Source of the DNA: Owenia fusiformis | Taxonomy: Eukaryota; Annelida; Polychaeta; Sabellida; Oweniidae | Assembly (NCBI GenBank): GCA_903813345.2 | Contig: CAIIXF020000004.1 | Coordinates: forward strand, 10,050,196-10,114,195 | Length of the DNA: 64,000 bases | Reading direction: 5' to 3' | Part shown: in pieces, positions 2,399 to 47,300 of the stretch | Layout of the letters: every line of letters begins with the position of its first letter | Position numbering within the stretch: the stretch's first letter is position 1 | Translations under genes and position numbers: made by a program | The notes under the pieces: generated by a model | What the model saw: the letters and a program-made list of their open reading frames with translations, nothing else | What the model was told of the DNA's origin: nothing | Database searches by the model: none

Positions 2399-5300
2399 CT
2401 AATAGCGTTCCAGAAGTCAACCAAAACTCCATGCCAACTTTATCAAACACATCTTGTGTGGCTCGCAATATCTTCCGCGCCTTATTAGCAGCTCTGTTTG
2501 CTTTCACTATGGCCGCTTTTGACAGTTTATTGGCCGAGTTAAATTGATCAGCTCTTGTCTGGTTACAAGGGATAAACTTGGAATGTTCTAAACTGGAGAG
2601 ATACTTGGAGGTAGATGCTGGTACATACAACCCAGGGATGGCACTCTTAGTCACAGCAAGACTGAAAATATTACAAGCGATAAACTTGAAATGTTCTAAA
2701 CTGGAGAGATACTTTGAGGTAGATGCTGGTACATACAACCCAGGGATGGCACTCTTAGTCACAGCAAGACTGAAAATATTACAAGCGATAAACTTGGAAT
2801 GTTCTAAACTGGATAGATACTTTGAGGTAGATGCTGGTACATACAACCCAGGGATGGCACTCTTAGTCACAGCAAGACTGAAAATATTACAAGCGATAAA
2901 CTTGGAATGTTCTAAACTGGAGAGATACTTGGAGGTAGATGCTTGTACATACAACCCAGGGATGGCACTCTTAGTCACAGCAAGACTGAAAATATTACAA
3001 GCGATAAACTTGGAATGTTCTAAACTGGAGAGATACTTGGAAGTTGATGCTGGTACATACAACCCAGGGATGGCACTCTTAGTCACAGCAAGACTGAAAA
3101 TATTACAAGCGATAAACTTGGAATGTTCTAAACTGGAGAGATACTTGGAGGTAGATGCTGATACATACAACCCAGGGATGGCACTCTTAGTCACAGCAAG
3201 ACTGAAAATATTACAAGCGATAAACTTGGAATGTTCTAAACTGGATAGATACTTTGAGGTAGATGCTGGTACATACAACCCAGGGATGGCACTCTTAGTC
3301 ACAGCAAGACTGAAAATATTACAAGCGATAAACTTGGAATGTTCTAAACTGGAGAGATACTTGGAAGTAGATGCTGGTACATACAACCCAGGGATGGCAC
3401 TCTTAGTCACAGCAAGACTGAAAATATTACAAGCGATAAACTTGAAATGTTCTAAACTGGAGAGATACTTTGAGGTAGATGCTGGTACATACAACCCAGG
3501 GATGGCACTCTTAGTCACAGCAAGACTGAAAATATTACAAGCGATAAACTTGGAATGTTCTAAACTGGAGAGATACTTGGAGGTAGATGCTTGTACATAC
3601 AACCCAGGGATGGCACTCTTAGTCACAGCAAGACTGAAAATATTACAAGCGATAAACTTGGAATGTTCTAAACTGGATAGATACTTTGAGGTAGATGCTG
3701 GTACATACAACCCAGGGATGGCACTCTTAGTCACAGTAAGACTGAAAATATTACAAGCGATAAACTTGAAATGTTCTAAACTGGATAGATACTTGGAGGT
3801 AGATGCTGGTACATACAATCCAGGGATGACACTCTTAGTTATAGTAAGACTGGAAATATTGGGAAAGTAGAAATCCTAGCCTTGCCCAAGTCGGTATTTT
3901 TTACTTATCTGATCTTGAATTATTACCGCCTTGTACAATCCAATACACCTGCACTGATATTATGCAGAGTTATTCAACGGTTTCGAGATTTCCATAATAC
4001 GCTATCAGGGGTATCGCGAAACCTTATTGATTAACAGATATACGCGTGGACACGACGTGTGACTTCAGGCTGATTGACCAATCAAAACGTTATCAGGTTG
4101 ACCTGCATAAGCAAAGCAATCTTCCCGATTTGAAATTCAATGATCTGATCGATCGTTTTTTTAGAGTTACAATATATTATGTAATTAAATGTACATAGGA
4201 AATATAAGAGTCATTAATATAAATTAAATCATGCAATAGATTTAAAACTGATTTGGCGATGAAAATACAAGACCGAGTCCAATGTAGCGGGTCATGTAGT
4301 CGATCACTGATTGAATCTCAGCCTACATGTTCATTTGAATTCAGCGATCGTTTCAACGTTTATTGTTGAAATCTTCTCACCTCCGGTTACCGATCGATGC
4401 TCCGGCATCCACTAAACTCTGATTGATATTTATCTGATAAAATATTTGTATTTCCATGATGAATTCATGCAAGATTTGTTCGTGAAAAGTCCCGGCGAAA
4501 AGTAAAAAGTGTACTTGTTTTTGACCGTGCATAATAATGAGCTAACGCTGCAGGATCGTTGTTGATTGGTCAAATTTTACCGACATAAACATTGAGTCGG
4601 TAAAGCACATGGCTTTCTCTTTGGTACAAGGCGGTCATAATAGAAATCAAGATAGTAAAAGAGACCGACTTGGGCAAGGCTATAGAAATCCCTGAATGCA
4701 ACTTATTGTCAGTTTTTTCTAAAGGACTAGTATTTAGATGGCAAGAGATTTTGGACAGCTGTATTTTTGGTCATGGGTATTTCCCGACCATACAATGAAC
4801 TATATTAAAACAATATCTTGACTTCAACAAAAGTGCATGAAAAAAAATAAAAATCTCATTTTAATAATGAGATTAGCCATGGATTAGTAACCCACCTCCT
4901 CACTTTTTCAATAATGTTGACCTTATATTGAAAAAGAGGACCGTGATTTTCAAAGTTTCTGTGCAAAATTAGATTGCAACATTAGTTATAAATTAGCGAG
5001 CAAACATTTATCATTACAGCCAGTTAGCAGGCTAAGAAGCAACTGAAGGGAGCATAGACCAGAACACGTGTCTGGGAATGACATCTGTCATAGATAAGGC
5101 CAGCCCCCTTGACAAATGCTTTGTAGGTTTAATGTTAGAGGCTGGCCCTATCTGAGACGATCTGTTGCTGCATAATTTAAATCAAGTTTAATTAATTAAA
5201 CTTACAAGTAATCTCATATATAGGAAAATTGGATTGATATACTATCTTCAACACAAATAGATGGCAACACAGTGTCATAATATCTGGTGTTATATTTGGA

Positions 5301-8300
5301 TCTCATGTTTTGTACTCATAGTGTCAGCTACTGAATGCAGTTTATTCATACAGGATTATATGGCATTGTGACTTGCAAACACTTGAGTAGTATTATACCC
5401 AACAGCATTTATATAGAAGGTATAAGAAAATGTTTGAAGGATACATGCTCATAAAAGTCATGCTCATAGTAATTTGAGTAATGGCTGATGTTTGAATGGG
5501 TTTTTTTTTCTCCAGCACTTCACATTACCTTGACATTATATCCTTTATGTAACCCAATCCCAAAAGAGGGGTGTATAAATTTAAGAATCTGGCAAACTTC
5601 ATTACACTTTCATTTGGTTGGGATATAGCGAGGTTTTTATTACTCCAGTCTTATTCGATATAATCATATAAATATGGTGAGGTAGAATTGCTAATTATAA
5701 ATTCCATTCAAAATGGGTTAGTACAAAACATGGCACCGTGTCATGGCACAGGTACACCCTATGGCATAGGCTACGGCACCCCCTATGCCATACTGTAGGC
5801 ACTAAAACACTATTACGAGTCAAATTCTTGCATATTTATGTAGATTATGATTACCCTTACAAATGTCTACCCTTCCAAACATTGTTCTTGAGCCTCTTAC
5901 TAAAGTTATAATATTATCTTTCTTGGCATAGTTTGCCATGAATGAACATTTGTAAATCTGAATCAAGTTACAGACGTATGTAGTACGTACTCAAGGACCC
6001 ATTCTCTCTTTGCCCAAAAACAAAACTTTCGTAAGAGGATCAAGAACAAAAATAATCGAAATAAATCTGAATTAGTATTCAAGAGCCAATGACACAGGGG
6101 TGCCATGGCTTAGTGGCTTAGTGCCATGTTTTGTACTAATCCCATTTTAGAGGCTTTTCAGTCTATTCTTATTTTCTAATCAAAATACGGGTGTTTGTGA
6201 TTCATTTCTGGAAATGTTAAGAATATAAATTGAAACGAAACACAATTAGTTGAAACGGTGTAAGAGGCGAAGATACAGGGCGAGCCAATAAAGGTAACCA
6301 AAAAATGTTTGCTAATAACTCAGTCATTCAGCATGGGTTTAAAATCATATTTTGCACAATTAAACCTTGTTCAATTTCAGTTCATTATACATTTAATTCT
6401 CAATTATATTGCAGTTAAAAGTTACATAGGTCAATCCCTTGCGCAATGTGCATTACAGGCTAGCGTTTTGAAATGAATATAGATCAAATTAATTAACTCG
6501 TTGAGTGAGTTATACTTACAAATGTCCCAACTGGTTGCCTACACTCAATGGTGAAAAGTAAATCAGAATAAATTGGGTTAAAACCTTGGTCAATGTTCTT
6601 TCATTCTACTAAGTGTCATTGGTCTATCTATTGTAGTCACGATTTTATGGTTATTTACAAAACATGGTCAAAATGCCGAAATGTGTCTCACTGACTGGAC
6701 ATAAATCCCACCAGAGTTTTATCTTTGGGCATATTTTCTACACTAACTTCCCTTGAAACATAGAAACAAGAGATAAGAAGGAAGATAAGAGCCATAACAT
6801 AAGATGTTTATGAGCGTGTTGTGTACAACTAAGCCCAAAACGTTCAAGTTGGTCTTCAAACATGAATTCCATATTTTGTGGCATGTTTTGTTAAATAGCC
6901 ATAAAATTTTAACCCCTAGAGATAGACCATTAAAACTTGGTAGAACTAGAATGACAATATATTGGACAAGGCCTAATTGTGCCAAATGTGACACTAAACC
7001 TGATTTATTAATATTTGTTAGGGTTACCTTTTTTGGCTCACCCTGTACATACAATTTACAATTTAATCAGCAACATAGATCAATGATTATGTCAATGTAC
7101 CATACCATACATGTAAAATACTTTTGTGAAGTATATTGAAAAGTAAAACAATGAAAATAAGGAATGTGCTCCTTATTTCTGTGAGACTTTAGTAAGTGTA
7201 TATATTTGCCAGTGGAGTCTCAGTACTACAAAATCTGACTGAGTCTTGAAAACTTCAATAGGACAACAGAATCACATACTCGTAAATTTGAATGGGTCAT
7301 TTTATTTTTCATTGGTATCTAATGAGACTCCTCAATTGAACTTTCCCCAGAGTAGCTCTTGTGGTATTACAATGTGAGAGTAACTCATGCGGTATTGCAA
7401 TGTCAGAGTAGCTCTTGTGATATTACAATGTAGAGAAATTCATGTGGTATTGCAATTTTAGAGTAACAAATGTGGTATTGTAATGTCAGAATAGCACATG
7501 TGGTATTGTCAGAGATTAAAAAATGGATTACAAATTGTGGAACTGTTACCAAAATCAGTTTCATAATCCATCCCCTTTTCATACATTTTCACATTCATAC
7601 ATACATGTAGCTTTACTGTACAGGGTGTCCCGAACGTATGGCCCCCCCCTAGGCAGACATATTCCAGTGTCCTCATAGTATGTGTCATATATCATTTTAA
7701 ACCATATCCAAAGTTACATTGATTTGCCAAGTATCATGGTTTAACTCCCAAATAGGAAAAAGTTACAGTTATTTCAAAAGTTAGTGTTTTGTCAAAATAA
7801 AGTTAAAATTTTCACCACATTACTAGTCAATGAGTCCCCCCTTGGCCATGTTAACAGCAGCAATTATTTTCAAATATAACCTTAAAAGCCCTTCCAAATA
7901 GGGGTGTGGAATTTTATAACCCTCTTAAAACCTGTTAAGGCACTTTAGAAGAGTTTCCTTAGAGTTTCTACCCTCACCGTTCTCTTTTTCCAACTAAATA
8001 CCCATCCGACCCAAAAAGAATTGCTGCTGCTAAGATGGCCCGGGAGAACACATTGACTATTGATTTGGTGTAAAATTGAACTTAATTTTGACCAAACACT
8101 AAATTTTGAAATGTCTGTAATTTTTTCACATTTGAGAGTTCAACCATGATACTTGGTGAATCAATGTAACTTTGGATAAGCTTTAAAATGATATATGACA
8201 CATACTATGACGACACTGGTATATGTCTGTCTAGGGGGGGGGGGGGGGGGCCATACTTTCGGGACACCCTGTACATCAGTTTTTCATAGGTCCAGTATAA

Positions 8301-11076
8301 GTCAGTCAATGTTATTATATTCATGCCTCATTGGATACTCTGGTATTGAATTAAATCCCCTCGCATAAATAATGGATTATATTGGTTTCCCATGACCTAG
8401 CAAACTGTCATGCATTCATTAGCTGTCAACACATACATACATTTACAAATGTTCCTTCATTAATGCATCGATTTTCTCAAAGATGGCAGATGGGTAAACA
8501 GAACTTTCAAAGATGGACAGGGCGAACTCCATAACATGGGATTTCCCATTGGATAATCCTTATCCCATGTAACTTTCATATTAACTTTTCAATCCATATG
8601 CCCTTATATGAAGTGAATGCTACCTTACAGTGTAATCTTATATTGCAAAAAAATATGAAAAATCATGGTCATCTTTTTCAGTAATAAGGTCAATATTATT
8701 GAAGGTAGCTTACTAATCCATGGCTAATCTCATTATTAAAATGGGATTTTTATTTTTTCATGCACATTTGTTGAAGTCAAGATATTGTTTTAATATAAAA
8801 TGTTCATTGTATGGTCGGGAAATACCCGTGACCAAAAATACAGCTGTCCAAAATCTCTTGCCATCTTAATACTAGTCCTTTCTTGAGAAATTAGTACATA
8901 TAGGCAACTGAATGATTTTATTGAGCGTCATAAAATTTTGTAACTTCAACAATTCGGTTTCAGAATTTTTTTCGACATTCATGGCTATTCTTACTTTTGT
9001 AGAGAACATCAGAAAAGCTTTAGAAAATGACAAGTACTTAATTGGACTGTTTCTTGATCTTTCTAAAGCATTTGATACTTTCAATCATGGTATTCTTTTA
9101 GAAAAAATGATTTTTTATGGAATAAGGGATAAATCCCTTAACTTCTTGCAGAGTTATTTAGAAAACAGAAAACAAAAAGGTTTTTATAACCATGTTTTCT
9201 CTGAAACAGAATCAGTGTCATATGGTATTCCACAAGGTTCTGTCCTTGGTCCTCTTTTGTCCATTATTTATGTAAATGGTATATACTTGGCAGTGACTAC
9301 TCTAAACCCCGTTATTTTTGCAGATGATACGAATGTTTTAGCACATGATTCTTGTATTGACTCTCTTGTAGAGAATCTTAACCAGGAACTAGTTACTCTT
9401 GATGAATGGTTCAGATCAAATAAACTAAACTAAACAAGAAAATTCAGTGAAAAAATTCAGAATTTTTTCACTGGATTTTCTCGTTTTTTATACATTTTAC
9501 AAAACAAATCTTCTCACAAGTCTATTCTAGGCACATAAGTGCACTTTTTTGCAAACCTGGAAGATGTAGACAATGTGGGGAAGGAGTAATTCTTGTTTGA
9601 AAAATGACATGTGACTCAATTGAGGAATGCAGACAATTTCCCAACATGCACCCTGGCCTTAACATTTACACCTTTTCTCGATGCAACTATACTCACTTAC
9701 CTTTGAAATGCAGCTGGGAAACGGATGCTTCCCACTGGCGGGCGTTTCTTGGCTGTTGCCTCATCTGTTAAGGGCCCTATCCAGTAATATCTACCGTGTC
9801 TGTTATATATTATGGCTATGTGAATCCACTTGCTGATAGATGGCACTGATGTCGTTAAGAATATATGGTTGACATTCTGGTCTCTGTCTTTTACGACTGT
9901 TGTGTGGTATTTGTTACGAGATAGAGTGCGAATGAATGTCTCCTATAATAGAAAATTAATGGCTAGGGTGAGGTTGGACTTATTCTAGAATAGGAAACTA
10001 CTGGTAAGAGCGCTGTAGAATTTCTCCATTAATGGGAAATCACTGTCTAGAGCGCTGTAGGATTTCTCTAATGGAAAATTATTGACTACAGCGCCAGTAC
10101 AGGCTAGAACGCTGTAAGCCTTATAGAGCGTTAAAATTTCTCCTATAATAGAAAATTACTGACAAGAGCGCTAAGGAATTTTTCCTGTCATAGAAAATTA
10201 CTGGGAAGAATGCTAAAGAATTTCTCTTACATTAATGAAGGGCATTTACAGTACAGTTTACGTACATACTGTTGTAAACAAAATTCAAACATAACTTAAA
10301 CATTTCAAAAGCAGCTCACGTGTATTCTTACCAATTTAGTTCCAGCCAAATCGTCACGATTGATGCCATAGGAGACAATGGCTTTGTTGATGAGGTCCTC
10401 CTTCAGGTTATGTGTTGACACCATGCTGTTGTTGATTATGGTCGGGTCCAGAAGGATCAGAGAGATGTTATAGATGGCACTGAGTGATATGAATTGTAAT
10501 TGGAGGTTCAATGTGGCGTTAAGGAGTGTGGTTTTATTGGGCGAGAACGATTCTGTTGTGGACGATATCTGCAAAAACAAAATAACTTACCATTAATGAA
10601 TATTAATCACTTTTTTGTTGGAGAGAATCTTTAATCTTGAGTTTTTTTTTAAATTTGAATGGAGTAATTTCGAGACATTTGAATTTGGTTATCTATCAAA
10701 TTTATATCCACATAAATGTAGATGCACTTCTAATATGAATTATTTTAAAGATCACCATGCCAGTTGTTTTATGACTGCATATCTATTTATTTTTGGAAAC
10801 TGTAAACTGTTGATTTAATTTGTGTGTTGACCATGTATCAAGAGTGGTTGAATAGTGACGATCATTTGAGGCATCTTGGGTAGTTCTTTGCCGCTAACAT
10901 CTGCCTACCTGGTTTGCATGTTTGTAATATTTGGACATTCTTGGTCCGACGATCTTAGTCCCAGTATTTTCTGTCTTCGACTGCAGGTATAGTACGATGG
11001 CTGCAATCATGAACAGCAGAAGGAGTTTCTTGTTTAGTCGTCGTGCTATATATCCATCCATCATACCAAGGCGCAT
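2399..11076 (-). CDS. Fukutin-like LicD-family protein, gene 1 (partial, 3' exons off window)
   Basis: Four exons are read on the minus strand. Exon 1 is 11076-10909: 56 codons, a short cytoplasmic tail and a hydrophobic signal anchor (about residues 18-32) implying a type II Golgi/ER protein. Exon 2 is 10568-10332 (237 bp), exon 3 is 9942-9701 (242 bp), and exon 4 ends at 2399. Exon 4 begins at 2661 if the innermost 3' splice site is used (263 bp), or at any of eleven further sites up to 3849. Phases join cleanly (0, 0, 2, 1). Exon 4 ends in FWLTSGTLLG, the start of the fukutin/LicD nucleotidyltransferase domain, which in fukutin transfers ribitol-phosphate onto O-mannosyl glycans. The catalytic WYRQC/DVD exon and the C-terminal exon are not in the window; the gene either continues off the left edge or is truncated. 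Exons 2-4 match gene 2 in length; exon 1 is 9 bp shorter. Confidence 0.85.
2563..3849 (-). repeat. 108-bp minisatellite that repeats the exon 4 3' splice site 12 times
   Basis: Units of exactly 108 bp (36 codons) carry, in minus-strand order, AATATTTTCAG, then the first ~80 bases of exon 4, then ~20 bases leading to the next AATATTTTCAG. Candidate acceptors fall at 2661 + 108k for k = 0 to 11, the last at 3849. The minus frame is open through all units and matches the exon frame; each encodes a 36-residue block containing YVPASTSKYLSSLEHSKF. Unit variants (H/F before KF, L/K, G/C/D changes) recur in blocks, a sign of recent higher-order duplication. The plus strand is also open for 430 codons, but that is a by-product of the repeat. 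Confidence 0.93.
3868..4691. mobile_element. MULE-like foldback element with 9-bp target-site duplication
   Basis: The element spans 3877-4682 with inverted ends TAGCCTTGCCCAAGTCGG / CCGACTTGGGCAAGGCTA, homology continuing inward for about 70 bp. It is flanked by the direct repeat TAGAAATCC at 3868-3876 and 4683-4691. A 9-bp duplication with long inverted repeats is typical of Mutator-like elements. No transposase was seen. It sits about 20 bp upstream (minus sense) of the outermost exon 4 splice acceptor. Confidence 0.85.
5090..5155. other. Hairpin around GATAAGGCCAGCC / GGCTGGCCCTATC
   Basis: ATAGATAAGGCCAGCC is followed about 35 bases later by GGCTGGCCCTATCTGAGA, giving a stem of about 13 pairs. 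Probably a small foldback repeat; no function is inferred. Confidence 0.5.
5710..6148. mobile_element. MITE with ~27-bp inverted ends
   Basis: AAAATGGGTTAGTACAAAAC at 5710 is mirrored by GTTTTGTACTAATCCCATTTT ending at 6148, with ATGGCAC continuing the match on both sides. The interior is AT-rich with repeated ATGGCAC motifs. No clear target-site duplication and no ORF. Confidence 0.72.
6274..7047. mobile_element. Mariner-like MITE, TA target site
   Basis: The element is 6276-7045 with ends CAGGGCGAGCCAATAAAGGTAACC and GGTTACCTTTTTTGGCTCACCCTG, flanked by TA on both sides. It is 770 bp long and has no transposase. The two overlapping ORFs of about 100 codons here are translations of the element. 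Confidence 0.85.
7345..7510. repeat. Degenerate ~27-bp minisatellite
   Basis: About six imperfect copies of the phrase AGTAGCTCTTGTGGTATTACAATGTCAG, diverging at the 3' side. Intron 3 of fukutin-like gene 1. Confidence 0.75.
7619..8273. mobile_element. Mariner-like MITE with ~140-bp inverted ends
   Basis: CAGGGTGTCCCGAACGTATGG at 7621 is mirrored by CCATACTTTCGGGACACCCTG ending at 8271, with TA on each side. The inverted match continues inward through TATGTGTCATATATCATTTTAA and the ATCATGGTT region. 651 bp, no transposase ORF; a poly-G tract lies near the right end. Confidence 0.9.
8912..9433 (+). pseudogene. LINE reverse-transcriptase fragment (non-LTR retrotransposon)
   Basis: An open stretch of 173 codons contains FLDLSKAFDTFNH, YGIPQGSVLGPLL and FADDTNVL, the diagnostic blocks of a non-LTR retrotransposon reverse transcriptase, including the catalytic ADD. 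Just upstream, near 8955, QFGFR is readable only in a different frame, so there is at least one frameshift. Fingers, endonuclease and thumb regions are missing. This is a decayed fragment inserted in intron 3 of fukutin-like gene 1, not an active element. Confidence 0.9.
9440..9660. mobile_element. Half copy of a palindromic MITE (full copy at 53370-53790)
   Basis: AAGAAAATTCAGTGAAAAAATTC through TTTCCCAACATGCACCCTGGCC matches one arm of the palindrome at 53370-53790. It ends where homology with intron 3 of fukutin-like gene 2 begins (AACATTTACAC at 9659 and 27077). Confidence 0.8.
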
Positions 11077-12795
11077 TTTACCGAAACACGTATTGTTAAG
11101 GTGACTAGTGACTAGTGTTAGTAGTCTAGATCAACGAGTCATCACTGATCCGTATTAATTTTCCAAAGTAAAAAATGTAAAAATGAAATGGTGTTACGGT
11201 ACCATAGTCCTCGTACTTGCTATTCACGGTAAGATATCCAGTGTCAAGTGACAAGTACAGTAGCTTGATCCTATGTTTTACAGCGTTTAAGTTTTTCCAA
11301 GCACAGTGGCTGTGTAATTCTATGGATTTAAAGTTATGTTAACAAGAAAAACATTTTGAGACCTAAAGGCGACCAAGTGCAGCGAACCGCTCTCTTTCGT
11401 TACGTGTTATTGTAAAAATACTGTATTGAAAGGCATCCTTGATTATTGGTTATAAGATGTTATCATATGTTTATGGGACATGCTGGTACATTAATATTAA
11501 TCAATTGTCTTATTACACAATGTAAATGCTGGTTCGGGATCATCATCACTTGTAAAAACAATTAGCTTGTCTTTGAAAACCAATATATATGCGATATTTG
11601 ACCCCCAACTATTGAAATGGTGCTCGAAAACAGGTAGCGAAAGCAAACGAGTTGAATTTGTCGATATTTCGTGTCTGTGATGAATCTATATATTACAGAT
11701 GTTTGTAAGAAAATGAACCATGATGCAATCCAATCTAAATGTCTTTTTTATCTATTAAGTACCAGTATGTCAATGACCAAAGCGTTGGACAACGGGGGTC
11801 ACCCAATATTGGAAACCATCTGCTTGGTGTATGATATATACTTTTTAAAAGACGTACATAAGGGTGATGTACTGGGAGGTTTTGGATATGGGGTTTATCT
11901 AGAGGGAGATATGCATATCTACCTGAGGGACCGTAGGGACCGAAGGTAGATGTGCATATCTCACGAGGGATGAGCCCAATATCCAAACCGACCGTACATA
12001 ACTGCTTTATCCTATACCAAGTAGAGTTTCAGGTGCATATGGCCATTTCAATAGTACAAGGTGTAAAATAATCAAATCATTCTTATGCAAAGTCATTTTA
12101 TTGCATTTCCACTACTTACCGGAAGCGGGAAGATATGCACCGAAGCGGGAGATATGGAGGTTCTGGATATGGAAACCTCAAAATCAGGATACGGGATATA
12201 TCTTACCAACTTATCTCCCTAAAACTCTACTTGGCATAGGATAATAGTTGATATTCAACCAGATAAAAAATGTATGACGTGCACGGACCTGAGGACAATT
12301 CGGGAAGTGCGGGGTAATCTCAGCTTTAAGCGTTAATCTCTGCCTTATTTGAAAAGCTTACTATGTGTTTTTTATATCTATTTGAAGTATTTTTTATTCT
12401 CATTTCAGTGAAATTATATTTCCTTGAAAAGTTTGTTGGGATCTATCATATTTTAAAAATTAAACATTGTTAAATACGCTGGAAGGCGTAACACTTTACG
12501 CTTACACGGCTCGTTGAAATTGGGATAACTTTAAAAAAAATAATGATCAGAATTCAGATGAATTTAACAAAACGATTACATATACATTGAATGAGAATTA
12601 TATTTTCAAGAATATACACAAGCCTACAACAATGCAATTATTATGAGCATGTGATTGTGAGGCTCTAAAAACAGCAAAATGCCAACATCGCAAATTCAAC
12701 GATTTGTTGAAGTTTTGGATTTGAATGTTAATTTGGGGTCAATTGCTGAAACTTTTATTAAGTATATATTGTTCTTTTAGTCTAACATCATGATA
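9655..12795 (-). repeat. Segmental duplication shared with 27076-30012 (copy 1)
   Basis: Exons 1-3 of fukutin-like gene 1, their introns and about 1.7 kb of 5' flank recur nearly base for base at 27076-30012. The left limit is at AACATTTACAC and the right limit at GATATCAAGGAT. The copies differ by small indels, a 9-bp change in exon 1, and a ~390-bp insertion near 11854-12243 present only here. Exon 4 with its flank (2269-2700) matches 26158-26590 separately. Confidence 0.9.
11854..12243. mobile_element. Hairpin-type insertion in the 5' flank of fukutin-like gene 1
   Basis: These ~390 bp are absent from the otherwise matching flank of gene 2 (empty site near 29470). The segment includes a hairpin with stem GAGATATGCATATCTACC / GGTAGATGTGCATATCTC around GGGACCGTAGGGACC. 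The right side carries a second TATCCTA / TAGGATA phrase. Filled and empty paralogous sites identify it as a post-duplication insertion. Confidence 0.75.
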
Positions 12796-12799
12796 TCAA

Positions 12800-13210
12800 G
12801 GATCAACAAAAACAAGATGATGTTAAAAGAAAGTGAACTAAATGGAACAATTAATTTTAATCATTTTAAATGCAAAATATAGTCAGACAGGTGATCTTAT
12901 TTTCAATTACACAGATAAAATCAATATGTCATGCTAATAACCTTCCCAAAAACCGATTCATAAGTAGATAATCTGTTGTAAACTTCAAAAATATCAAAAT
13001 CTAATATTTTTCATTTTTTGTGGACCCCTGTTAAACCCATCAATAATAAGTAAATGGTAATGTTGACAAGTGCTCAACAAGTGAAAACGTATGCAGGAAT
13101 ATGTGTTTTATCATTTAAACTCATCAAAACGATTGGAGGATGAACAGGAGGAAACAGCTTAATTAAGGCTTATCTGAGAAATTCCATTATCACTTTAAAG
13201 CCTCCTGTTC
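12800..13210. other. AT-rich intergenic stretch, nothing recognised
   Basis: Between the 5' flank of fukutin-like gene 1 and the stop codon of the PAN-WSC gene. It should hold the 3' untranslated region and poly(A) site of the PAN-WSC gene, but no decisive signal was seen. Confidence 0.5.
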
Positions 13211-13216
13211 AAAAGG

Positions 13217-16200
13217 TTAATAAGAGACAAGGTATGTCGACATCATGTACATAGATGAACCTCCACATATCTCCGATGGGTTCCCCCGACACGGTATTGT
13301 GCAACCTTCAGTCATAGAATTCAAATAGTCTCCACACAGACACCGGAATCCCTCGTACGCCCCTGCGTACTTGGAACCTGAAATAATTTAAGAAATAAAA
13401 ACATCACACCGGAATACCCTGATAACGCTAATGTCAGATACCGTTGTCACAAATGGCGGACATAACCGTCGCTTCAACTCTTTAATCACTTGGTCCTTGT
13501 TTCATGGGACTTTATCGTCGCCAATTCTGTATATACATTGAGCTCTTGTGATGTTCAGGGTGGGCCAAAAAACCAATACCCAAGTTTAAAGATAAAGGTT
13601 TCAGGCCCGTAGACAGGGGGGTTCGATGGGTTCGAGTGACCCCCCCCCCCCACCAGGGGTGCCGTGAGCGACCAATAATCAAAAAATAGAAAATTCCCTT
13701 TCCCTCCATATTGCAGTCACAGCTGCACTCAATATGATTGACTTAATCATCATACATTTATGTACTGGATAAAGCATAAGAATGAGATTTTATAAGAAAT
13801 AATACACCGAAGGCCGAAGGCCTGAGGTTATTATTTCTTATCAAATCGACTTAAATCACACACATTCTTATTACAGGTAAATAGTATATTGCAGGTAAAT
13901 GGTCAATGATCTAATCTGGAAAATTTTATTTCTTTTGTGTTGACTGTTCATGTAGGGGTAAGTGGTTTGATACATGTAAGTGAGTGAGTTCTTTTGAGTT
14001 GAATGTTCATGTAGTTATATAGCCAATTAATTGTAACAACAAAAAGGGTTGGTTGCATTGACCTCATGAGTGTGAGTTGATGTAAGTGACTGAGTGAGCT
14101 ATAATTAGTCTAGCTTCAGTGCACAACAGGTGACCGTCCAGTCCAGAACATTGCATTTGAATACAGCAGAATATTTGTAAGTAAGATAAGATCAATGATG
14201 TAGATAGCAACAAAAATTGATAAATTGTTTTATTCTAAAGAATGCACAGTAACCAGAAAAGGGTACATGTATTTTTGTATATTGTTTTTAGGGAATGAAA
14301 ACTATCAAAAACTGTCAATGGTCATTTATGTCTCACTTGTTTTTGATAGCTTGCCAAGTGTACATTCTTTAAAAACAATAGAAAAATAATGCACTTTCCT
14401 TTTGATAAAACCATACATTCTTAAAAATAAACCACAGCAAATTCTATTGTGTTGCTACCCAAGTGGGATTTAATAAAGAGTAATGCACAATTGATAATTA
14501 ATCAAAAAATATAGAAGTATTATTGCTGAATTTTGCACTATACTTGTAAAAATTTTCCTCCATTTCCCACAATTTGGAAATCCGCAGTGAATATTTCTTT
14601 GGTCACGCATGACACCCCTGGTGTCAGTTTTAGCCTCTAAATCCACAAGAAAACAACAGTTTTTCAATCAGATAGTGTCACATTGTTGGGAAATGATTTT
14701 AATCTTTAAAATGATATACAAAAGCATGGCATGGTTTAACGTTATATCATATGATATTCATCCTTAAACTTGGGTATCGGTTTTTTGGCCCACCCTGTAC
14801 TTTTATCATAAGAAACCCCAATTTCTATCAAATGGGGTTGTGAATCGCCACAATACTGCGTCTTTAATATCGTCAATGACAACGGAATCTGAATTTGAAA
14901 TAATTGACAAAGACAACGGCATGTGGTAAGATGTGACAACGGACTATGGTGGATGTATTGCATTGGAACATATGAAAATAACAATCTTTAAACTACATAT
15001 ACCGTTGTCAAATATGACCGTTGTCACTCCGATTTTACATCACATTTGACCCACACCTACTGTTGTCATTTATACAGTATCCGTTGTCCTGTGTCATATT
15101 TTGATCGGTAAGATTAAAGCCTTCGTTTCGATGGTAGAACATATTTAACTATATGATCAGTAGAAAAACACTTTGATTGATTGCAGTACCAAAGGAATTT
15201 AATCCAGTCGCTCTATTAAACTTACAGATCACGAATATCTCATTGAAGCGACGGTTATTTCCCACCATTTGTGACAACGGTATCTGACTTTACCGTTGTC
15301 AGGATATTCCGGCGTCCAAATGAATGTCACATTTAGTTCAAATTGATGTCACATTTGGTTTAAATTGATGTCATATTCCTATTTGGGGGGGGGGGGTATA
15401 TACAGGAGAGGCTTGAGAAAATGCAATAACAAGGCAGTTCGGTTCTGGATGAAGATATTTATAACGAATGCTATATTCGATAATTATAATATGAACTGTT
15501 TTAATCAATTATCATTTAAGGATTTAAGCCCTGACTCAGTGCTATATATGCTGAATCATTCCATTGAAGGTGTTGTTTCCAAATATTGCATGATCACACA
15601 GCGGGAATGCAAAGTTTAGGACACCACCCCTGAGTGTTATGAACCAGCCACAATTCATTGTCTTGGGGTTAAATTCTTTTCCCACATTACAAAATATTTT
15701 CTACAAAATCACCTAAATCGCTAAAATGACATATTTTAAATGTTTTTTTTGCAGGGGTAAAGTTGGCAAAGCATCAATTTCAATCTGTGAGTCTAGTTAT
15801 CACTTTGACAAATGCTTTATTGGTTATTTAACGGAATGAAGTTACGTGAAATATCAAGTTCTGATTGGCTGGAATTGGACACACTTTGCCTAGCTATGTG
15901 TGAATTATCAATCACATCATTTACCATTAACTTTGCACTCAAGGTCGCCTTGGTACAAAACACCATGTAAAATTATCAACAATTACATTACCCATTGGAC
16001 CGTTGAAAGGATATATCATTTTGATGTTTTGATTGATGATGTCACGACAGCCCTACCATAGGAAGTGTAATAGAAAAGATATAATCATTGATTCAGTCAT
16101 ACTCGAATCTCTTGGAAAAGCATAACGCATTACTAATTTCCATATGTACATGTACATGTATATATTGGATTTCTTAATAACTGCAATAGACTAGGTGCGA

Positions 16201-23400: not shown

Positions 23401-23409
23401 AATCCTAGA

Positions 23410-26400
23410 CTAAAATATTCTCTTTCCGTTATTTCTAAATCGTTGTACAACTTCTCTCTTTTCTGATTCTGCAAACTTTCCTGCTTCAACCATATTTGGT
23501 GCAGATCTGTCCCAGGCCCACTCTTTGTCAGGTTGCATCCAATTAGGTCCATACTCAGCTTCTATAATAGCTTGAGTGTTACATGGCACAAGGTAGAGAT
23601 CATTGAATAACTCAGCGGAACAGAGGGGTATATCTCGAGGATAAATCCATCGTACTTTTTCTAGTGTCTTAAAGCGCAAACCACCGGTCCACGTGTACTT
23701 GGTCTCTTTATAGTGGAAGAATATATCCAACTTGATACCGAATCCTCGAACTGCCAACTCAAAGCCATCTTTCGGCTGAAAGGTAAAACGGAACTTGAAC
23801 CGAAAGTGATTAGTGATTAGTTTCATTTCAGTACAAATGCCTTATGCCTATAATAACAGGGTTCAGATCAACCAATGAATTTGGGCTTTTGAAAATCAAT
23901 CTAGGCCTCTATCAAATCCCCTAGCATAGGATTTGATCAGATTAACCAAATCAGAAACTGACCATAGTCAAGTTCTGACAATAACCTGGTCGCTTAAGCC
24001 CAGCATATACTAACCACTTGTCCCATCGAGGGCTTTGTATAAAAAGCCTCCTACCTCATACCCACCTACCCACGTACGTGGGACATGATACAGTCCTTGA
24101 AGGGTTCAATTTTAAAAATATTAACTTTTAGTTTATGATGAATTATAGATGAATTAATGCACCCATATGCCTTTATTTATGGATCGGTCATGTCTTAAAG
24201 TAAAGCAGGAATTGCAGAAATGTTAATAATTTGAGCTTTTTAATTTGATTTCATGTCTGCTTTTGATTTCTGGAAATGTTTTTTTGTTGATCGGCAGTCT
24301 GGCTTTGTATAAAAAAAACTCTTACACACTTACGTGGGTCTTTTGAGGATGCAATTTTTTTTAAAGATTATTCATTCTCAGTTTATGCTTGATTATAGAT
24401 GCATTAATGCACTCGTCCCCTATGCCTTTATCTATACAATAATAATAAAGCCGAATTACAGAATTGTTATTTGAGAAATTTTAATCGTTTTGTCAAAATA
24501 ACGCAATCAATTTATTTTATATCCAAGGTTAATTAAAAGTGTATAGGAAAGTATGACGCAAAGGCTATTAAGGGATCGATCATATTTATACGATCGATAG
24601 AAAAGGCAGGATGTGTTGTAAGACTGCCCCATAAATCATTTCGAAAAATCAAAAGCAGACCTGAAAACAAAAATAGCTAAAATTCATGAAACTAAAGGCA
24701 CAGTGTAAAATACAGCCGATAAAATGGCTCATTTTTCAGGCTTTGGAGTCGATTCTACTTTCGAAATATGCCCCGAGAACTATGTATAAAGGTCCATTCA
24801 AAATTGAACTTGAAAAGCCATATTACATAATACTGAGGATTTAAAGTTGTATGCGACAACTTTCAGCTCATCTTTACTAAAATAGACCGGAAGTGAGTTT
24901 TCGAGTCGAGTAAATGGTGATACTGTAATGTCCTTTTATGAAGCGGGGAAGAATCCATGGCAAAATCTAAATAATTGAAATATTCACACACGGACGTCAC
25001 AGAACACACCTCCGGTTTTATAATCGATAACTTTTCAGTCAAAAAATATTTTTATGAATATCGCTAAATTACAAAAATAGGTAGGGTAAAGAATATGTTA
25101 AAATCGTTTCATCTCGTCCCAGAGGCAATGTTTTGTCACTTGTATCTCCCTCAGAATTCCTCATTAAACATTTCCGGTTTTATTTTATGACTAGACAGTT
25201 GACAGATCCATAGATAAAGGCATATGGGTGCATTAATTCATCTAAAATTCAACATCAACTAAGATTTAATAACTTTTAAAAACGAACCCTTCAAGGACTG
25301 CATCATGTCCCACGTACGTGGGTAGGTGGGTATGAGGTAGGAGGTCTTTTATACAAAGCCCCCATCGAGTCCCACGATGTCCCATGGGACCTCGTTATCC
25401 TTGCCCCCTTGAAGTCCCACTATGCCTTATCGAGTCCCATATTTTCATTCTCGATTTGGCTTCGTGGGGCTCGATCGGGGACTCGATGGGGAATGACGAC
25501 GCAAAGTTCCACGGACTACCATGGAATCCCATGAAGTCCCACGGAGTATCATGGGGCAAAACCTCATTAAGTCCAAAGAGATCCCACGAAGTCCCATGCA
25601 ATATTGATTCTGTGGAGGTCCCACAGTGCTCCATTGATTGGTGTATGTTGGGTTTCAGTCTCACCTTGCCATAGCGGTGCATGATTCTGATTGGTTGCCC
25701 CGGGCGATGAAGAAGTTTTTCTAGGTCAGGAATAAATTCTGTGATCCATGTCCCCACATCTACATCAGTAGTGTGCGCGATGAGACCACACTGTCTGTAC
25801 CAGCCTACAAAAAGTCAAAATGTTTGTACGAATGTACAAATAAAGCTACACTGTTTGTACCAACCTACAAAAAGTCATAATGTTTAATTGTACAAAATTA
25901 CAAATAAAGCTACACTGTCTGTACCAGCCTACAAAAAGTCAAAATGCTTGTACAAATGTACAAATAAAGCTAAACTGTTTGTACCGACCAACAAATGTCT
26001 ATCTGTACACATTGTCACACTGTCTGTACCATTCTCAAAATAAAGCCACACTGTCTGTACCATCCTATAATTCAGACATATTGTCCATGTCCTTCTAAAC
26101 CACCATCTGTACCATCTTTAAATTTATAAAAACATATTATTCAATTCCATAAATAAAGCGAGGCCGTCTTTAACTTCCTACATATACTCGCTGTTATATA
26201 GTTACATCAGACACATAAAGTCACAATTTCTACACCATTTTACATATAATGCCTTACTGTTTAATTAATGTGTATTGTTACTCTGAAGTACAGTACCTAA
26301 TAGCGTTCCAGCAGTCAACCAAAACTTCATGCCAACTTTATCAAATAAACCTTTTGTAGCTTGCAAGATATGCCGTGCTTTGTTAGCAGTAGCGTTTGCT

Positions 26401-28690
26401 TCCACTTGGCCCGCTTTTGACAGTTTATTGGCCGCGTTAAATTGATCAGCTCTTGTCTGGTTACAAGGGATGAACTTGGAATGTTCTAAACTGGAGAGAT
26501 ACTTGGAGGAAGATGCTGGTACATACAATCCAGGGATGACACTCCTAGTTATAGTAAGACTGAAAATATTACAAGCGATAAACTTGGAATGTTCTAAACT
26601 GGAGAGATACTTGGAGGTAGATGCTGGTAAATACAATCCAAGGATGACACTCTTAGTTATATAGTAAGACTGGAAATATTTGAAAATTAGAATATGCGAG
26701 CTTATTATGTAATGAGGGCAGGCCAATCAATTTGTGTTTATTCATACTTCGCAGGGAGGATTGGCTCCCTGAATGCAACATCGATATTCTGTCCCATATA
26801 TGGTATGGTGTCCTTTTACCTTATTTTCACGTGACAGCTTCCAGAAACATGTCACATGTAAAAGGTCAAGGTCAGCATACCATATATGGGACAGAATTGG
26901 ACAGACTATCGATACTACATTCTGGGAGCCAATGAGAAGAGATTTTTTACAGCGCTTTTTGACAGTTTTGTCAAAAAATCATGCGACCTCCGCTCCCCCT
27001 GGCTAAGGGGCCTGCACAGTGTCCTGGATAGACCCCATCCCTGGTGGGTCTAATGATTCATTACGTCTAGGGTATTAACATTTACACCCACTTTTCTTGA
27101 TGCAACTATACTCCACTCTACTATACTTGCATTTGGTGTTCATGAGCAACCCATTTGGCTTATTAGTAATGATTATGTATTTGTTTTTATTTGTCTGTTC
27201 CTTATTCATGGTTTATCGGATGAATGTTAGATGTAAGTAAGGCACTTTCAAAAACATACTAAACAATACAATTAGACAAACAAAGTATCTTATGCATTTC
27301 TAGGTGTTAGGTATAGTAGAGTGACTCACTTACCTTTGAAATGCAGCTGGGAAACGGATGCTCCTCACTGGCGGGCGTTTCTTGGCTGTTGCCTCATCGT
27401 TTAAAGGCCCTATCCAGTAATATCTACCGTGTCGGTTATATATTATGGCTATGTGAATCCATTTGCTGATAGATGGCACTGATGTCGTTAAGAATATATG
27501 ATTGGCATTCTGGTCTCTGTCTTTTACGAGGGATATGTGGTATTTGTTACGAGATAGAGTGCGAATGAATGTCTCCTATAATTGAAAATAGATAGCTAGG
27601 GTGACGTTGAACTTATTCTACAATATGAAACTACTGGTAAGAGCGCTGTAGAATTTCTCCTTTAATGGGAAATCACCTAGAGCGCAGTAGGATTTCTCTA
27701 ATGGAAAATTCGCGCTAGTACAGGCTAGAACGCTGTAAGCCTTATAGAGCGTTAGAATTTCTCCTACTATAGAAAATTACTGACTAGAGCGCTAAAAAAA
27801 TTTCCTGTTATAGAAAATTACTGGGTAGAATGCTTAATAATTCCTCTTACATTAATTAAGGGCATTTACAGCACAGTTTACGTTCATACTGTTTTAAACA
27901 AAGTTCAAACATAACTTAAACATTTCAAAAGCAGTTAACGTGTATTCTTACCAATTTAGTTCCAGCCAAATCGTCACGATTGATGCCATAGGAGACAAGG
28001 ACTTTGTTGATGAGGTCCTCCTTCAGGTTATGTGTTGAAACCATGCTGTTGTTGATTATGGTCGGGTCCAGAAGGATCAGAGTGATGTTATAGATGGCAC
28101 TGAGTGATATGAATTGTAATTGGAGGTTAGATGTGGCGTTTAGGCGTGTGGTTTTATTGGGCGAGAACGATTCTGTTTTGGACGATATCTGCAAAAACAA
28201 AATAACTTACCATTAATGAATATTAATTACTTTTTGTTGGAGAGAATCTTTATATTTTCCAGTTTATTTTTTAATTTGAATTTGGTTATCTATCAAATTT
28301 ATATCCACATAGATGCACTTCTAATATGAATTATTTTAAAGAGCACCATGACAGTGTTGTTTTATGACTGCATATCTATTTACTTTTGGAAACTGTAAAC
28401 TGGTGACTTAATGTGTTGACCATGTTTATCAAGAGTGGTTGAATAGTGACGATAATTTGAGGAATCTCGGGGAGTTCTTTGAGACTGGTGACATCTATCT
28501 AGCACCTGCCTACCTCGTTTGCATGTTTGTAATATTTAGACATTCTTGGTGCGACGATCCTAGTCCCAGTATTTTCCGTCCTCGACTGCAGGTATAGTAT
28601 GAAAACTGCTATCATGGACAGTAGAAGGAGTTTCTTGTTTTGTCGTCGTGCTATATATGAAGCGTATCCATCCATCATACCAAGGCGCAT
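23410..28690 (-). CDS. Fukutin-like LicD-family protein, gene 2 (complete, six exons)
   Basis: Exons on the minus strand are 28690-28514, 28188-27952, 27575-27334, 26559-26297, 25804-25665 and 23775-23410. All have GT-AG junctions and phases 0, 0, 2, 1, 0, giving 1425 bp, 474 residues; human fukutin has 461. Residues about 20-36 are a signal anchor, so a type II Golgi protein is expected. LILLDPTII (exon 2) and YYWIGPL (exon 3) fit the N-terminal stem domain. FWLTAGTLLG then WYRQCGLIAHTTDVDVG (exons 4-5) are the catalytic core, with DVD as metal-binding acidic pair. KLDIFFHY and WAWDRSAPN (exon 6) fit the C-terminal part. Fukutin adds ribitol-5-phosphate to alpha-dystroglycan; the substrate here is inferred only. 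Intron 5 contains nested transposons. Confidence 0.93.
23994..25657. mobile_element. PIF/Harbinger-like MITE split by a nested MULE-like element
   Basis: The left end AGCCCAGCATATACTAACCA (23997) resembles the inverse of the right end TGGTGTATGTTGGGTT (ending 25654). The interior carries CCCATCGAGTCCCACG, GTCCCATG and CCATGGAATCCCATGAAG phrases like the cleaner copy at 61301-61613. Flanking TTA/TCA fits a degraded 3-bp site. The right end lies within about 10 bp of the exon 5 splice donor of fukutin-like gene 2. Confidence 0.7.
24022..25369. mobile_element. MULE-like foldback element with 9-bp target-site duplication
   Basis: The element is 24031-25360, starting GGCTTTGTATAAAAAGCC and ending TTTTATACAAAGCC, flanked by the direct repeat CCCATCGAG (24022-24030 and 25361-25369). 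Inverted arms extend about 160 bp, including CCCACGTACGTGGG and CATATGCCTTTAT / ATAAAGGCATATG. A further partial copy of the left arm lies near 24300-24440. No transposase ORF. Confidence 0.87.
25804..26100 (-). repeat. ~60-bp minisatellite copying the exon 5 3' splice site
   Basis: On the minus strand the true acceptor of exon 5 is TTTTTGTAG followed by GCTGGTACAGACAGTGT. Upstream in intron 4 this junction recurs: near-intact at about 25850-25870 and 25920-25940 (TTTTTGTAG then G[C/T]TGGTACA[G/A]ACAGTGT), then decaying copies near 25990, 26030, 26060 and 26110. Each unit ends with AGCTTTATTTGTACATT. The copied exon piece encodes WYRQC. Confidence 0.85.
26470..26669 (-). repeat. Two-unit version of the 108-bp junction repeat in gene 2
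   Basis: The inner acceptor at 26559 gives the in-frame exon 4. The outer acceptor at 26669 lies 110 bp away: an extra TA changes ACTATAACTAAG to ACTATATAACTAAG, so entry there in the required phase meets TAA after four codons. Gene 2 therefore preserves a short ancestral or contracted state of the array seen in gene 1. Confidence 0.88.
26780..26915. mobile_element. Small foldback element in intron 3 of fukutin-like gene 2
   Basis: ATTCTGTCCCATATATGGTATG (26785) is mirrored by CATACCATATATGGGACAGAAT (ending near 26897), with ATCGATA and GTAAAAGG also paired. No gene copy 1 counterpart. Confidence 0.78.
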
Positions 28691-31785: not shown

Positions 31786-32229
31786 GCTGTTAGATTCTTT
31801 TCTTTTATTATAAATAAACTACTTCAGGGTTCCATATATTTTTTCGTATCCCAAATATTTCTCTCTGCTGATGAACATTCCATTCAATTTCTCTCTAAAT
31901 TTTGGATGAACTGTATGATTTTCTTGCATTTCTGTATAATTTAAAGTGTTGGTTACCCACATTTTTTTTATTCCCTGCTTCATCTACTCTTTTCTGCTCA
32001 ATTTTGCCTTTTAAAAAAGTTTTATCCAAAAAGACCATTTAGGTATACGAGGAGGTCATTTTGTTGGTCAAATTTTTCATGTTATTTGGTCACAATCGGA
32101 ACATTGCACTCTATGTCACAATAAACATCATTTGATAAATCTTTCCAGGTGGAATACTTCTTGAACTGTCTTAACACTTAAAACGTTATAAGCATTATCT
32201 TCGACTTATGCAGGGTCAGGTATAAGCGG

Positions 32230-32301
32230 TTATGCAACTTGTTCATATGTTGCTTTCCGTAAGCCTTTGCCAAGACAACAAGCCAGAACTGCTCCGAAGA
32301 A
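32230..32301 (-). CDS. Alternative last exon B of the tetraspanin
   Basis: The acceptor TTATTTCAG at 32302 opens a 72-bp exon encoding 23 residues and a TAA stop: start FFGAVLACCLGKG, end KATYEQVA. It finishes TM4 and supplies a short cytoplasmic tail; the ACC pair is a likely palmitoylation site and YEQV resembles a tyrosine-type sorting signal. Same length, phase and FGAVL start as exon A at 43054-43125, so the two are duplicates. Confidence 0.85.
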   Translation of the reverse strand, partial: FFGAVLACCLGKGLRKATYEQVA

Positions 32302-44300: not shown

Positions 44301-47300
44301 AAAAAACGACCATGCCTTTTGTATACTTTTGCAAATAATCTGCTTGATTTTTTGCATTTCTGTACAATAGACTAGATGCGAGTAGAAATAATCTTGATTT
44401 ACGTCATTAAATATTCAAAATTCAGTCAAAGTGATTTCATATTTGAAATTTGCATGTAAAAGTACATCTAGAAATATGGTTTCAAAAATTGTCTATCAAC
44501 TTTGAAAATTTTTTTTTTTGAAAATGTGACTTCTTGTTCGGGTTGATTCCCCATAGACCCCAAGTTACAAAATCTCAAAAAGTGAATTATCTTTTCTTGT
44601 ATTGGACAGATAACATTTTCTTTGACCTGATATATTTTAATTTGCATAACTATTAGATACATAAGGGTTGTATGAAGATTGAACCACCCAAATAGATGTA
44701 ATTTAAGTTAAAGGGAACTTTCTACCATACCCGCCATGCTATCTGACCCAAATGACCCACCTGGTGGGGAATCTGGTAACTACCTACTCGCATCTGCGTT
44801 ATTTAAGTGATCAATACAAACCTATTTTCTTTATTCCATGCTGATTTCATGATTTCTTAAAACTTCTTGACACAACCAAAATGTAACTATATTATAGAAT
44901 TTCCAGAAACAATTCTAACATCCTTCACTGCAGAATGCTTTCCATGTATTAGGGAAAAACTCTTTAAATGAGAAATATAGTAAAATAGAGTGAAATCAAC
45001 AAGGAAGAATTTAACCCCTAAGCTGCACAGAGTGACGAAATTTCTTGTCACAAACGAACTGACTGTCAGATGAAGAGACTAGAGTGACAAGAAAATCTGT
45101 CACATAAAATTCAATAAAAATTTTCCTTGACAATATTGATCAAATCTATTCAAATCATGTTTTAAAATCTGTAGAGAGGATAGATGCTCAATACATTTAC
45201 AAAACTGAGTATCACATCTGTAAAGTATTGTATCTAGTTAAATGTCAAAAACTGTCAAAAAACTGTGAAAAACTGTCAAAAAATCAAAACTTGGAAGCCA
45301 AGAGGCTAAATTTATAACAGATTTGTAGGGAACACTCTATTGTAAAGAAATACTGAAAAGTTAGGCACATCATTCAACTTAAAGGATGTGCCAGCCACGA
45401 CCAATAACTATCCACACACGCGTCACTTACCTGTAAAAACGCGAATCCGATTGCAGCGCCCCCTATTGCACCAATGTTTTTCTTCATGAATGTCACTACC
45501 TTCTTGCTGCAACCCTAGTAGAGAAAAAGACACATCATGTATCAGTTACATTTAATTGACATAAAGGGAGAGTGGCTTATTCCAGGGCTGTAGCAAGGGA
45601 GGGGTAAGGGGGAGGGGGGTGAACCCCCATGGAATTCTGAAAGTGAACCCCCTTGGCAAAAGCTAGCTATGGGCCTGTATCAATTAATTGATTGTATCAG
45701 CTATTATATTAAGGACAGCTGTGGTGGCGGGAAATCAACAAACAGTACTTCACTGACGAAGGATGTAGTCACATCCGAAAGCTATGAAAGAAATAAGTTA
45801 TTCAGGTTAGTTTGAGGAACCATAAATCATATTTTATTATAGTTGATCGACACAAAGTAGAAGTCGCTTACTTCTATATACAAAATGTATAAGTTGTACT
45901 TTCCATAGTTGACTGACACATAGTGGATTGGCTCTCCTTCATATGAACTGAAGCATGTATACTTGACTGATACATAGTGGGAGTGGCTTACCTCTGTGAA
46001 AATTGTGTCAGCTATAGTTCCCTGACACATATTGGTTAGTCTTACCTCAGCATATAATGTACCATTGCCTCTGTACATACTGTATCTGATATAGTTTGAT
46101 TGACAAATGAGAGTGGCCTACCTTTATTAGATTGTACCATCCATAGTTGATTAACACATAGTGGGAGTGGCTTACCTCTGTATAAATTGTACTTTCCCTA
46201 GTTAAGGGACACATAGTGAGAGTAGCTTACCTCTGTAAAAATTGTCCTTTCCTGATTGATTGACACATAGTGGGAGTGGCTTACCTCTGTATAAATTGTA
46301 CTTTCCCTAGTTAAGGGACACATAGTGGGAGTGGTTTACCTCTGTATAAACTGTACTTTCCTGATTGATTGACACATAGTGGGAGTGGCTTACCTCTGTG
46401 TAAATTGTACTTTCCTCAGTTGAGTGACACAAAGTGGGAGTGGCTCCACTCTCTGTATAAATTGTACTTTCCTCAGTTGAGTGACACATAGTGGGAGTGG
46501 CTCCACTCTCTGTATAAATTGTACTTTCCCTAGTTGAGTGACACATAGTGGGAGTGGCTTACCTCTGTATAAATTGTACTTTCCTTAGTTGATTAACACA
46601 TAGTGGGAGTGGCTTACCTTTATTAGATTGTACCATCCATAGTTGATTAACACATAGTGGGAGTGGCATACCTCTGTATAAATTGTACTTTCCTTAGTTG
46701 ATTAACACATAGTGGGAGTGGCTTACCTCTGTATAAATTGTACTTTCCTAAGTTGATTAACACATAGTGGTAGTGGCTTACCTCTGTATAAATTGTATCA
46801 GCTATAGTTTCATTTGTAGTTCCACCTGGGAATGGTGTAGTAACACAATTTGCAGAGTCTGGTTTTTTGCAACATGTCCTTGGTACGGAGTTAGTTTTGT
46901 TAGACCATGGAGAGGTGTACCAGTCCAAATAGGTGTCAACACCACAGCATTGCAGCTACAAAAATGAATTTGTTACAAATGGTGACAGGAGAATAACAAT
47001 ATGCTACATATGCTAAATGCCAATGCATGTCACATTAAGAAGTGTATCTACAACAATATTTCACTTTTTGGTGACAAAAATGTGGTAAATATGGTAAATG
47101 GTAACATATGAACACTGTATTATGTACTTTTATTTCATTTATTCTATTTATGTATATCTATGTATTTCACTGTTGATATCAAATAATGATTATTACTCAG
47201 AATAAAAAAGTAAACTTGATAAAAATAAATTAATTTCATTATTTTTGCTGAAAATAACGTACAGAGAAGTTTAAAACCTTATGAACTTTATCTGCACTAC

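Follow-up and report, generated by a model that had tools for sequence, protein, structure and literature searches.

Exon edges in the polychaete Owenia fusiformis carry about three times as many tandem arrays as random placement of the repeat unit predicts, as shown in a two-family sample of genes. The most probable explanation, in our judgement, is that near-neutral tandem duplications arise across exon edges and likely expand by unequal exchange; through exon definition, splicing is predicted to pass over the extra copies. Within the 64-kb stretch of DNA analysed here (the window), four tandem arrays cross exon edges, as the initial annotation had claimed; TRF detects all four, and a working-looking splice site was located at each junction. 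The genes involved all lie on the minus strand and comprise two fukutin-like genes and one tetraspanin gene. Fukutin-like gene 2 matches Pfam FKTN_N and the tetraspanin matches PF00335, while gene 1 was identified through exon similarity; a PDB search for fukutin gave no match.

In gene 1, exons 1 to 3 lie at 10909..11076, 10332..10568 and 9701..9942 and exon 4 at 2399..2661 (all minus strand), with exons 5 and 6 to the left of the window (locus L012). The acceptor of exon 4 is overlain by a 108-bp array of 12.0 copies (2563..3860, minus strand); the exon includes the unit copy joined to its body, so that 2661 is the first exon base. Each unit consists of 9 intron bases (TATTTTCAG) and 99 exon bases, and each carries an acceptor, TATTTTCAG/TCTT in 11 of the 12 (the slash marks the splice junction) and TATTTCCAG in the other. 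Gene 2 is contained in the window on the minus strand, with exons 1 to 6 at 28514..28690, 27952..28188, 27334..27575, 26297..26559, 25665..25804 and 23410..23775. It has two such arrays. The first, with 2.0 copies of 108/110 bp (26461..26680, minus strand), covers the exon 4 acceptor and is homologous to the gene 1 array. The second, with 3.4 copies of 60 bp (25788..25995, minus strand), covers the exon 5 acceptor, whose junction reads TTTTTGTAG/GCTGGTACAGACAGTGT (TTTTTGTAG/GCTGG). By eye, older degraded copies of this array extend to about 26070. The two 108-bp arrays descend from a single array older than the gene duplication; the four cases originally listed as separate, although each spans a junction, therefore represent three independent seeds. 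Array copy numbers are unequal among the fukutin paralogues of this one assembly.

The gene 1 array could also be read as a coding repeat in which all 11 spare units belong to the exon and together contribute 396 residues. The unit length equals 36 codons, none of the 12 units interrupts the reading frame, and third codon positions account for 6 of the 13 variable exonic columns. However, each unit keeps its acceptor, the next copy in a homologous array at C4:1048k contains a stop, and the outer copy in gene 2 exon 4 lies 2 bp out of frame. Furthermore, the assembled exon 6 of gene 1 is interrupted by an in-frame stop, and a 700-aa query including all units retrieved a single protein, P0001, which lacks the repeats; the same query found no public model of gene 1 itself, with or without repeats. 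The C4:1048k stop, the gene 2 shift, the exon 6 stop and the repeat-free P0001 led us to reject a coding repeat as the main cause, and we regard it as very improbable.

The fourth array affects a donor. In the tetraspanin gene (minus strand), exons were placed at 48199..48273 (FAAFLMLVFIVELSAGIALFVFQGQ), 47702..47797 (LQKGFSDGLTSAV...), 46782..46955 (LQCCGVDTYLDW...ADTIYTE, with the donor after 46782) and, beyond the array, 45431..45514 (GCSKKVVTFMKKN..., its start set by hand where the exon finder gave 45506). The donor ACAGAG/GTAAGC is repeated in a 55-bp array of 12.8 copies (46096..46797, minus strand), and its GT is kept in 11 of 13 listed copies, a count that includes the authentic copy and excludes more diverged ones. 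An extra copy lies near 46002. The search for the tetraspanin family listed 29 matches.

Do arrays meet exon edges more often than chance allows? In the window, 4 of 31 merged arrays (period of at least 20) span a junction versus 0.67 expected from random seeds of unit length (P = 0.0036); counting three independent events, which is fairer, gives P = 0.027. These statistics use 14 exons placed by homology and by hand, since our exon finder, when applied to the window, missed the tetraspanin exon at the array and exon 1 of fukutin gene 2 and assigned several exons to the wrong strand. Junctions in the window are under-counted, as the upstream exons of the tetraspanin gene were not placed.

The excess beyond chance, a claim of the initial annotation, holds as well in 135.8 kb of separate sequence from the TCP-1 and kinesin gene families. 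With a period of at least 28, 14 of 25 arrays span an exon junction versus 4.25 expected under random placement of units (P = 4.5e-6), with P between 5e-8 and 7e-4 over 18 combinations of period, exon threshold and margin. With a period of at least 20, the count is 15 of 38 versus 4.5 under the same seed null. Exon prediction relied on a small finder whose training set was HMM matches at the same loci as those tested; it recovered 45 of 46 TCP-1 matches, and the 22 extra exons it proposed all lie on the gene's strand. A first test on TCP-1, based on raw HMM match ends, had not reached significance, with 7 of 15 arrays versus 3.96 expected (P = 0.054; P = 0.17 by junctions), and the central exons of 30 kinesin loci taken alone showed no spanning array. 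The spanning arrays involve seven donors and seven acceptors. Read by eye, eight kinesin and eight TCP-1 candidates have the junction region copied, one of the TCP-1 candidates (L024, 30 bp) being too shallow to enter the count. Spanning arrays do not clearly exceed the others in copy number (P = 0.09 for periods of at least 20, P = 0.48 for at least 28).

This pattern might instead reflect tolerance only: duplications would occur uniformly, those inside exons would be lost, and those at junctions would be as harmless as intronic ones, with no hot spot. Predicted introns in the sample are short (median 387 bp), which is why arrays often end near exons, and the geometry described below makes junction duplications harmless. 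Under a harsher null in which whole arrays are placed, the 15 of 38 compare with 8.8 expected, an excess of just 1.7-fold (P = 0.017). The fitting null, however, places the unit and not the whole array, and this seed null already leaves out exon-internal and exon-swallowing placements, yet it expects 4.25 of the 25 arrays where 14 are observed. We thus consider tolerance without a hot spot unlikely, though it is the most serious of the competing readings. The roughly threefold excess implies that exon edges are either prone to duplication or better at keeping arrays; the earlier proposal that junction sequence is prone to duplication fits the excess.

That the assembler collapsed or expanded repeats at random places is scarcely credible, although the copy numbers of long arrays are those of the assembly. 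The same 12 units occur at a pair of loci separated by 24 kb, whose identity over a 438-base query is 99%, and an older paralogue has about 15 diverged units. Units are also distinguished by point changes, and 16 arrays in two unrelated gene families follow the same junction rule.

The position of the copies is uniform. In 22 of 22 arrays checked (from 23, one being excluded for a wrong edge), the spares sit on the intron side, with up to 19 of them at one junction. Are these spare sites useful, as back-up or regulated alternatives maintained by selection? A canonical GT or AG is retained in 116 of 129 recognisable spare copies, a figure from which strongly decayed copies are absent because copies were found by motif match, and of six fukutin copies compared, five have arrays, or relics recognised by eye, at the exon 5 acceptor. 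Nevertheless, spare splice dinucleotides decay about like neighbouring bases: of 234 dinucleotide positions, 14 no longer match the authentic copy, versus 239 of 3042 for the neighbours (P = 0.37). Because copies were matched on these neighbours, the neighbour rate is lowered and the sites may still be weakly conserved; one of 117 copies has an edge off by two bases. The dinucleotide is decayed in L042 and in two matched 48-bp copies of L024. Use of the next copy would yield an isoform out of frame or stopped in 18 of 22 cases and one in frame and open in four. Given that the dinucleotides decay like their neighbours, selection for spare sites was rejected as the main cause, and we give it very little weight. 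Of the causes raised initially, neutrality of the extra sites agrees with this decay, while usefulness is unsupported.

Public gene models point the same way. CCT2 (L027) contains three arrays, a 96-bp acceptor array of 4.2 copies and donor arrays of 53 bp (20.2 copies) and 28 bp (16.6 copies). Against the chain predicted from exon-adjacent copies only, the public Owenia protein P0006 (538 aa) gives a gap-free alignment of 408 aa with two mismatches, both at split codons filled by hand. In this model CCT2 uses only the exon-adjacent copy at all three arrays, and no spare site, which also speaks against useful spares. P0002, a partial protein, likewise begins at the last acceptor copy. Judging from these models, spare splice sites are probably ignored by the cell.

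We therefore favour near-neutral duplication across exon edges. An array would likely originate as a short tandem duplication covering an exon-intron junction, and unequal exchange would likely enlarge it. Whenever a junction is duplicated, one copy stays contiguous with the exon and the spares go to the intron side, the geometry seen in all arrays checked. If an acceptor pairs with the next donor across the exon, the exon-adjacent copy would be favoured, and the duplication would be close to neutral and kept; duplications wholly within exons would presumably be purged by selection. Predicted introns being short, intron definition may also matter in part. A bolder version, to which we give somewhat less than an even chance, is that exon edges are duplication hot spots throughout the Owenia genome and give rise to a great number of mirages (the name such arrays bear in amphioxus) in ordinary genes, with the spliceosome position-locked to the exon-adjacent copy among as many as twenty near-identical sites and the spares forming a standing pool from which introns could lengthen, exons shift and new introns arise. 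Shared by amphioxus and an annelid, this situation would be one that recurs in animal genomes and is likely tied to exon definition. If our sample is typical, Owenia offers, in a large number of its genes, natural competition among 2 to about 20 near-identical sites differing mainly in position, and such genes could test whether splice-site choice depends on distance to the partner across the exon or on site strength or scanning. The arrays also provide material from which introns can grow, exon edges shift and new introns form.

The structure itself has already been described in amphioxus. In Adh3, the globins BflGb6 and BflGb9, troponin C and PGBD5, minisatellite-like copies of intron-exon boundaries were named 'mirages'; the available text of these reports describes them at donors and acceptors, with units of about 10-160 bp and AG or GT in many copies (PMC3087553, PMC3902484), and regular splicing undisturbed by RT-PCR (PMC3087553). 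The Owenia arrays are mirages: they have short tandem units that span the boundary with AG or GT repeated, at both 5' and 3' boundaries. As far as that text goes, amphioxus mirages were described gene by gene, whereas those of Owenia are counted against a null in two families; conversely, splicing and length polymorphism were measured in amphioxus, while the Owenia arrays are known from sequence and gene models. The host also differs, an annelid with up to 19 spares at a junction instead of a cephalochordate. The literature searched, with subscription journals mostly outside its coverage, contained no mirage report beyond cephalochordates, in Owenia, other annelids or elsewhere; the Owenia arrays show that boundary minisatellites are not confined to cephalochordates.

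Two further systems are related. In human UBC, tandem dual-specific splice sites resemble the Owenia arrays in that each array unit has a splice site, but UBC units are described as coding monomers bounded by sites serving as both donor and acceptor (PMC10809524). Each Owenia array, in contrast, repeats either a donor or an acceptor, and isoforms using the next unit, which would stay in frame in a UBC-type system, mostly break the frame here. In intron gain by tandem duplication (the Rogers model, as cited in PMC3087553, and the potato RdRp case, PMC4974935), an internal tandem duplication likewise generates spare splice signals. That duplication, however, creates a new intron, whereas in Owenia it copies a junction already present, so that the spares fall in the old intron.

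The initial annotation held that arrays placed by chance would seldom hit exon junctions so often, and this is borne out in the window, where 4 of 31 arrays of period at least 20 bp span a junction of one of 14 exons against 0.67 expected (p=0.0036; p=0.027 when recounted with three independent seeds). The window occupies positions 10050196-10114195 of contig C4 in the assembly of the annelid Owenia fusiformis. Such arrays, in which the repeat unit itself spans an exon-intron junction, are known in amphioxus as mirages.

Two other gene families show the same excess. For TCP-1, we took 46 of 60 genome-wide exon matches, in eight exon-dense stretches (47 kb) picked before any array was viewed; for kinesins, the best 30 of 144 matches were extended by 1.5 kb on either side and merged into 26 loci (88.8 kb). 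Exons were predicted with a small exon finder trained on these same loci, which recovered 45 of the 46 TCP-1 matches and gave 174 exons overall; several of the window's exons escaped it or were misplaced. An array counted as spanning if it reached 8 bp or more beyond a junction in both directions, and our null placed a unit-length seed at random, leaving out placements that fell inside an exon or swallowed one. A junction is spanned by 15 of 38 arrays of period at least 20 bp (4.5 expected, p=2.7e-6) and by 14 of 25 of period at least 28 bp (4.25 expected, p=4.5e-6), the latter becoming 10 of 25 against 3.4 under a stricter exon threshold (p=6.6e-4). Taken alone, kinesins give 8 of 23 against 2.6 and TCP-1 7 of 15 against 1.9. 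When entire arrays are placed at random, 8.8 of the 38 are expected to span (p=0.017). Of the two nulls we favour the unit-level one: the junction is present in the spare copies, those not joined to the exon body, and must therefore have been covered by the duplication that founded the array. An initial test restricted to raw TCP-1 match ends yielded p=0.054 when arrays were counted and p=0.17 when junctions were, and no spanning array was seen when only the central exons of kinesin loci were considered.

Two more arrays, the 30-bp one of locus L024 and the 31-bp one of L058, reach only very shallowly into the exon and were left out of the count. Among non-spanning arrays of period at least 28 bp, 7 of 11 have an exon edge no more than 30 bp away; these include the two shallow arrays and one, in L036, belonging to an array that spans at period at least 20 bp. 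With a median intron of 387 bp, chance may explain part of this proximity. The roughly threefold excess at exon edges is compatible with duplication-prone edges and with preferential retention alike.

Copies of the junction region are visible by eye in the 8 kinesin and the 8 TCP-1 candidates, with a decayed spare dinucleotide in some (L042 and the matched 48-bp copies of L024). One CCT2 gene harbours three mirages, two of them at different donors (28 bp and 53 bp x20) and the third at an acceptor (96 bp x4). On contig C2, a kinesin gene shows 18 exon matches spaced 159 bp, and the array units at both ends, the sole parts examined, carry the acceptor. Elsewhere, a 52-bp x28 array (L013, 3090-4565) with a donor-like ATGGTAAGG in its unit is overlapped by no predicted exon.

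Are the spare splice sites preserved? In all 22 arrays retained (23 were run and one mis-set row dropped), the spare copies sit on the intron side, as the geometry of tandem duplication dictates. A canonical dinucleotide is present in 116 of the 129 copies found by motif match, a search that passes over strongly decayed copies. An isoform spliced at the next copy would stay in frame and open for only 4 of the 22 arrays; for the 28-bp CCT2 array, the next copy tested lies 285 bp off, closer diverged copies being unmatched. A CCT2 chain built from exon-adjacent copies only aligns without gaps over 408 amino acids with the public Owenia CCT2 (538 amino acids). Relative to the authentic copy, 14 of 234 positions are changed in the spare dinucleotides and 239 of 3042 in the neighbouring bases (p=0.37), a comparison in which matching on neighbours lowers the neighbour rate, and there is no clear sign of preservation or purging. 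In view of how splicing works in general, exon definition would cause spare sites to be passed over. The uniformity of the units, and the fact that paralogues differ in copy number, suggest that the arrays grow by unequal exchange.

Both fukutin-like genes are encoded on the minus strand. Gene 2 is complete, with six exons (FKTN_N 38.3 bits, cut-off 27); gene 1, recognized by exon similarity, has its exons 1-4 inside the window and 5-6 immediately left of it, in locus L012. Its exon 6 (L012 7537-7902, contig C4) contains an in-frame stop in this assembly, so gene 1 may be decaying. The 108-bp unit comprises 9 intron bases and the first 99 bases of exon 4. Gene 1 carries 12 such units, free of indels and with an open frame throughout; 14 of 108 columns are variable, 13 of them exonic. 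Gene 2 has two copies, and its outer unit resembles that of gene 1 (TATTTCCAG, ...AACTAAGAGTGTC...), so the array is probably older than the duplication of the gene. A near-identical third copy of the gene, 24 kb off, also has 12 units, and another at 9 Mb about 15.

At the exon 5 acceptor, gene 2 has a 60-bp array and gene 1 one of 157 bp x2. One fukutin copy on contig C1 bears a 31-bp array there, two more C4 copies show, by eye, relics of shorter repeats, and the close C1 neighbour copy has no array. The close C1 paralogues L016 and L018 differ at this acceptor: the intron of just one is longer by about 100 bases that include repeat copies, which reflects a recent gain or loss.

The third gene encodes a tetraspanin (98.4 bits; exons upstream not located), and its 55-bp donor unit keeps its GT in 11 of the 13 copies listed. 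A 17/34/51-bp array in a tetraspanin intron (48488-48870) begins near a donor-like TTTGGTAAGTG and may be another mirage if this marks an exon end. Fukutin gene 1 holds, between its exons 3 and 4, a plus-strand open frame of 173 amino acids (8912-9433) whose motifs (GIPQGSVLGPLL, FADDT) look like those of a LINE reverse transcriptase. Another plus-strand frame (35382-36083, 233 amino acids) has weak GDSL-lipase matches slightly under both Pfam cut-offs. The satellite at 84-2178 (periods 151, 339 and 348 bp) looks dispersed, since arrays whose period is 338/339 bp and whose consensus is similar also occur in L012 and L015.

The structure itself is not new. What is new is the lineage, the count against a null and the presence of arrays in chaperonin genes, which are essential in model organisms. 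Our literature search, which reached few subscription journals, found no report of a mirage in an annelid. The Owenia arrays are the same kind of structure as the amphioxus mirages, for which RT-PCR showed regular splicing and which their authors considered possibly more general in cephalochordates (PMC3087553, PMC3902484).
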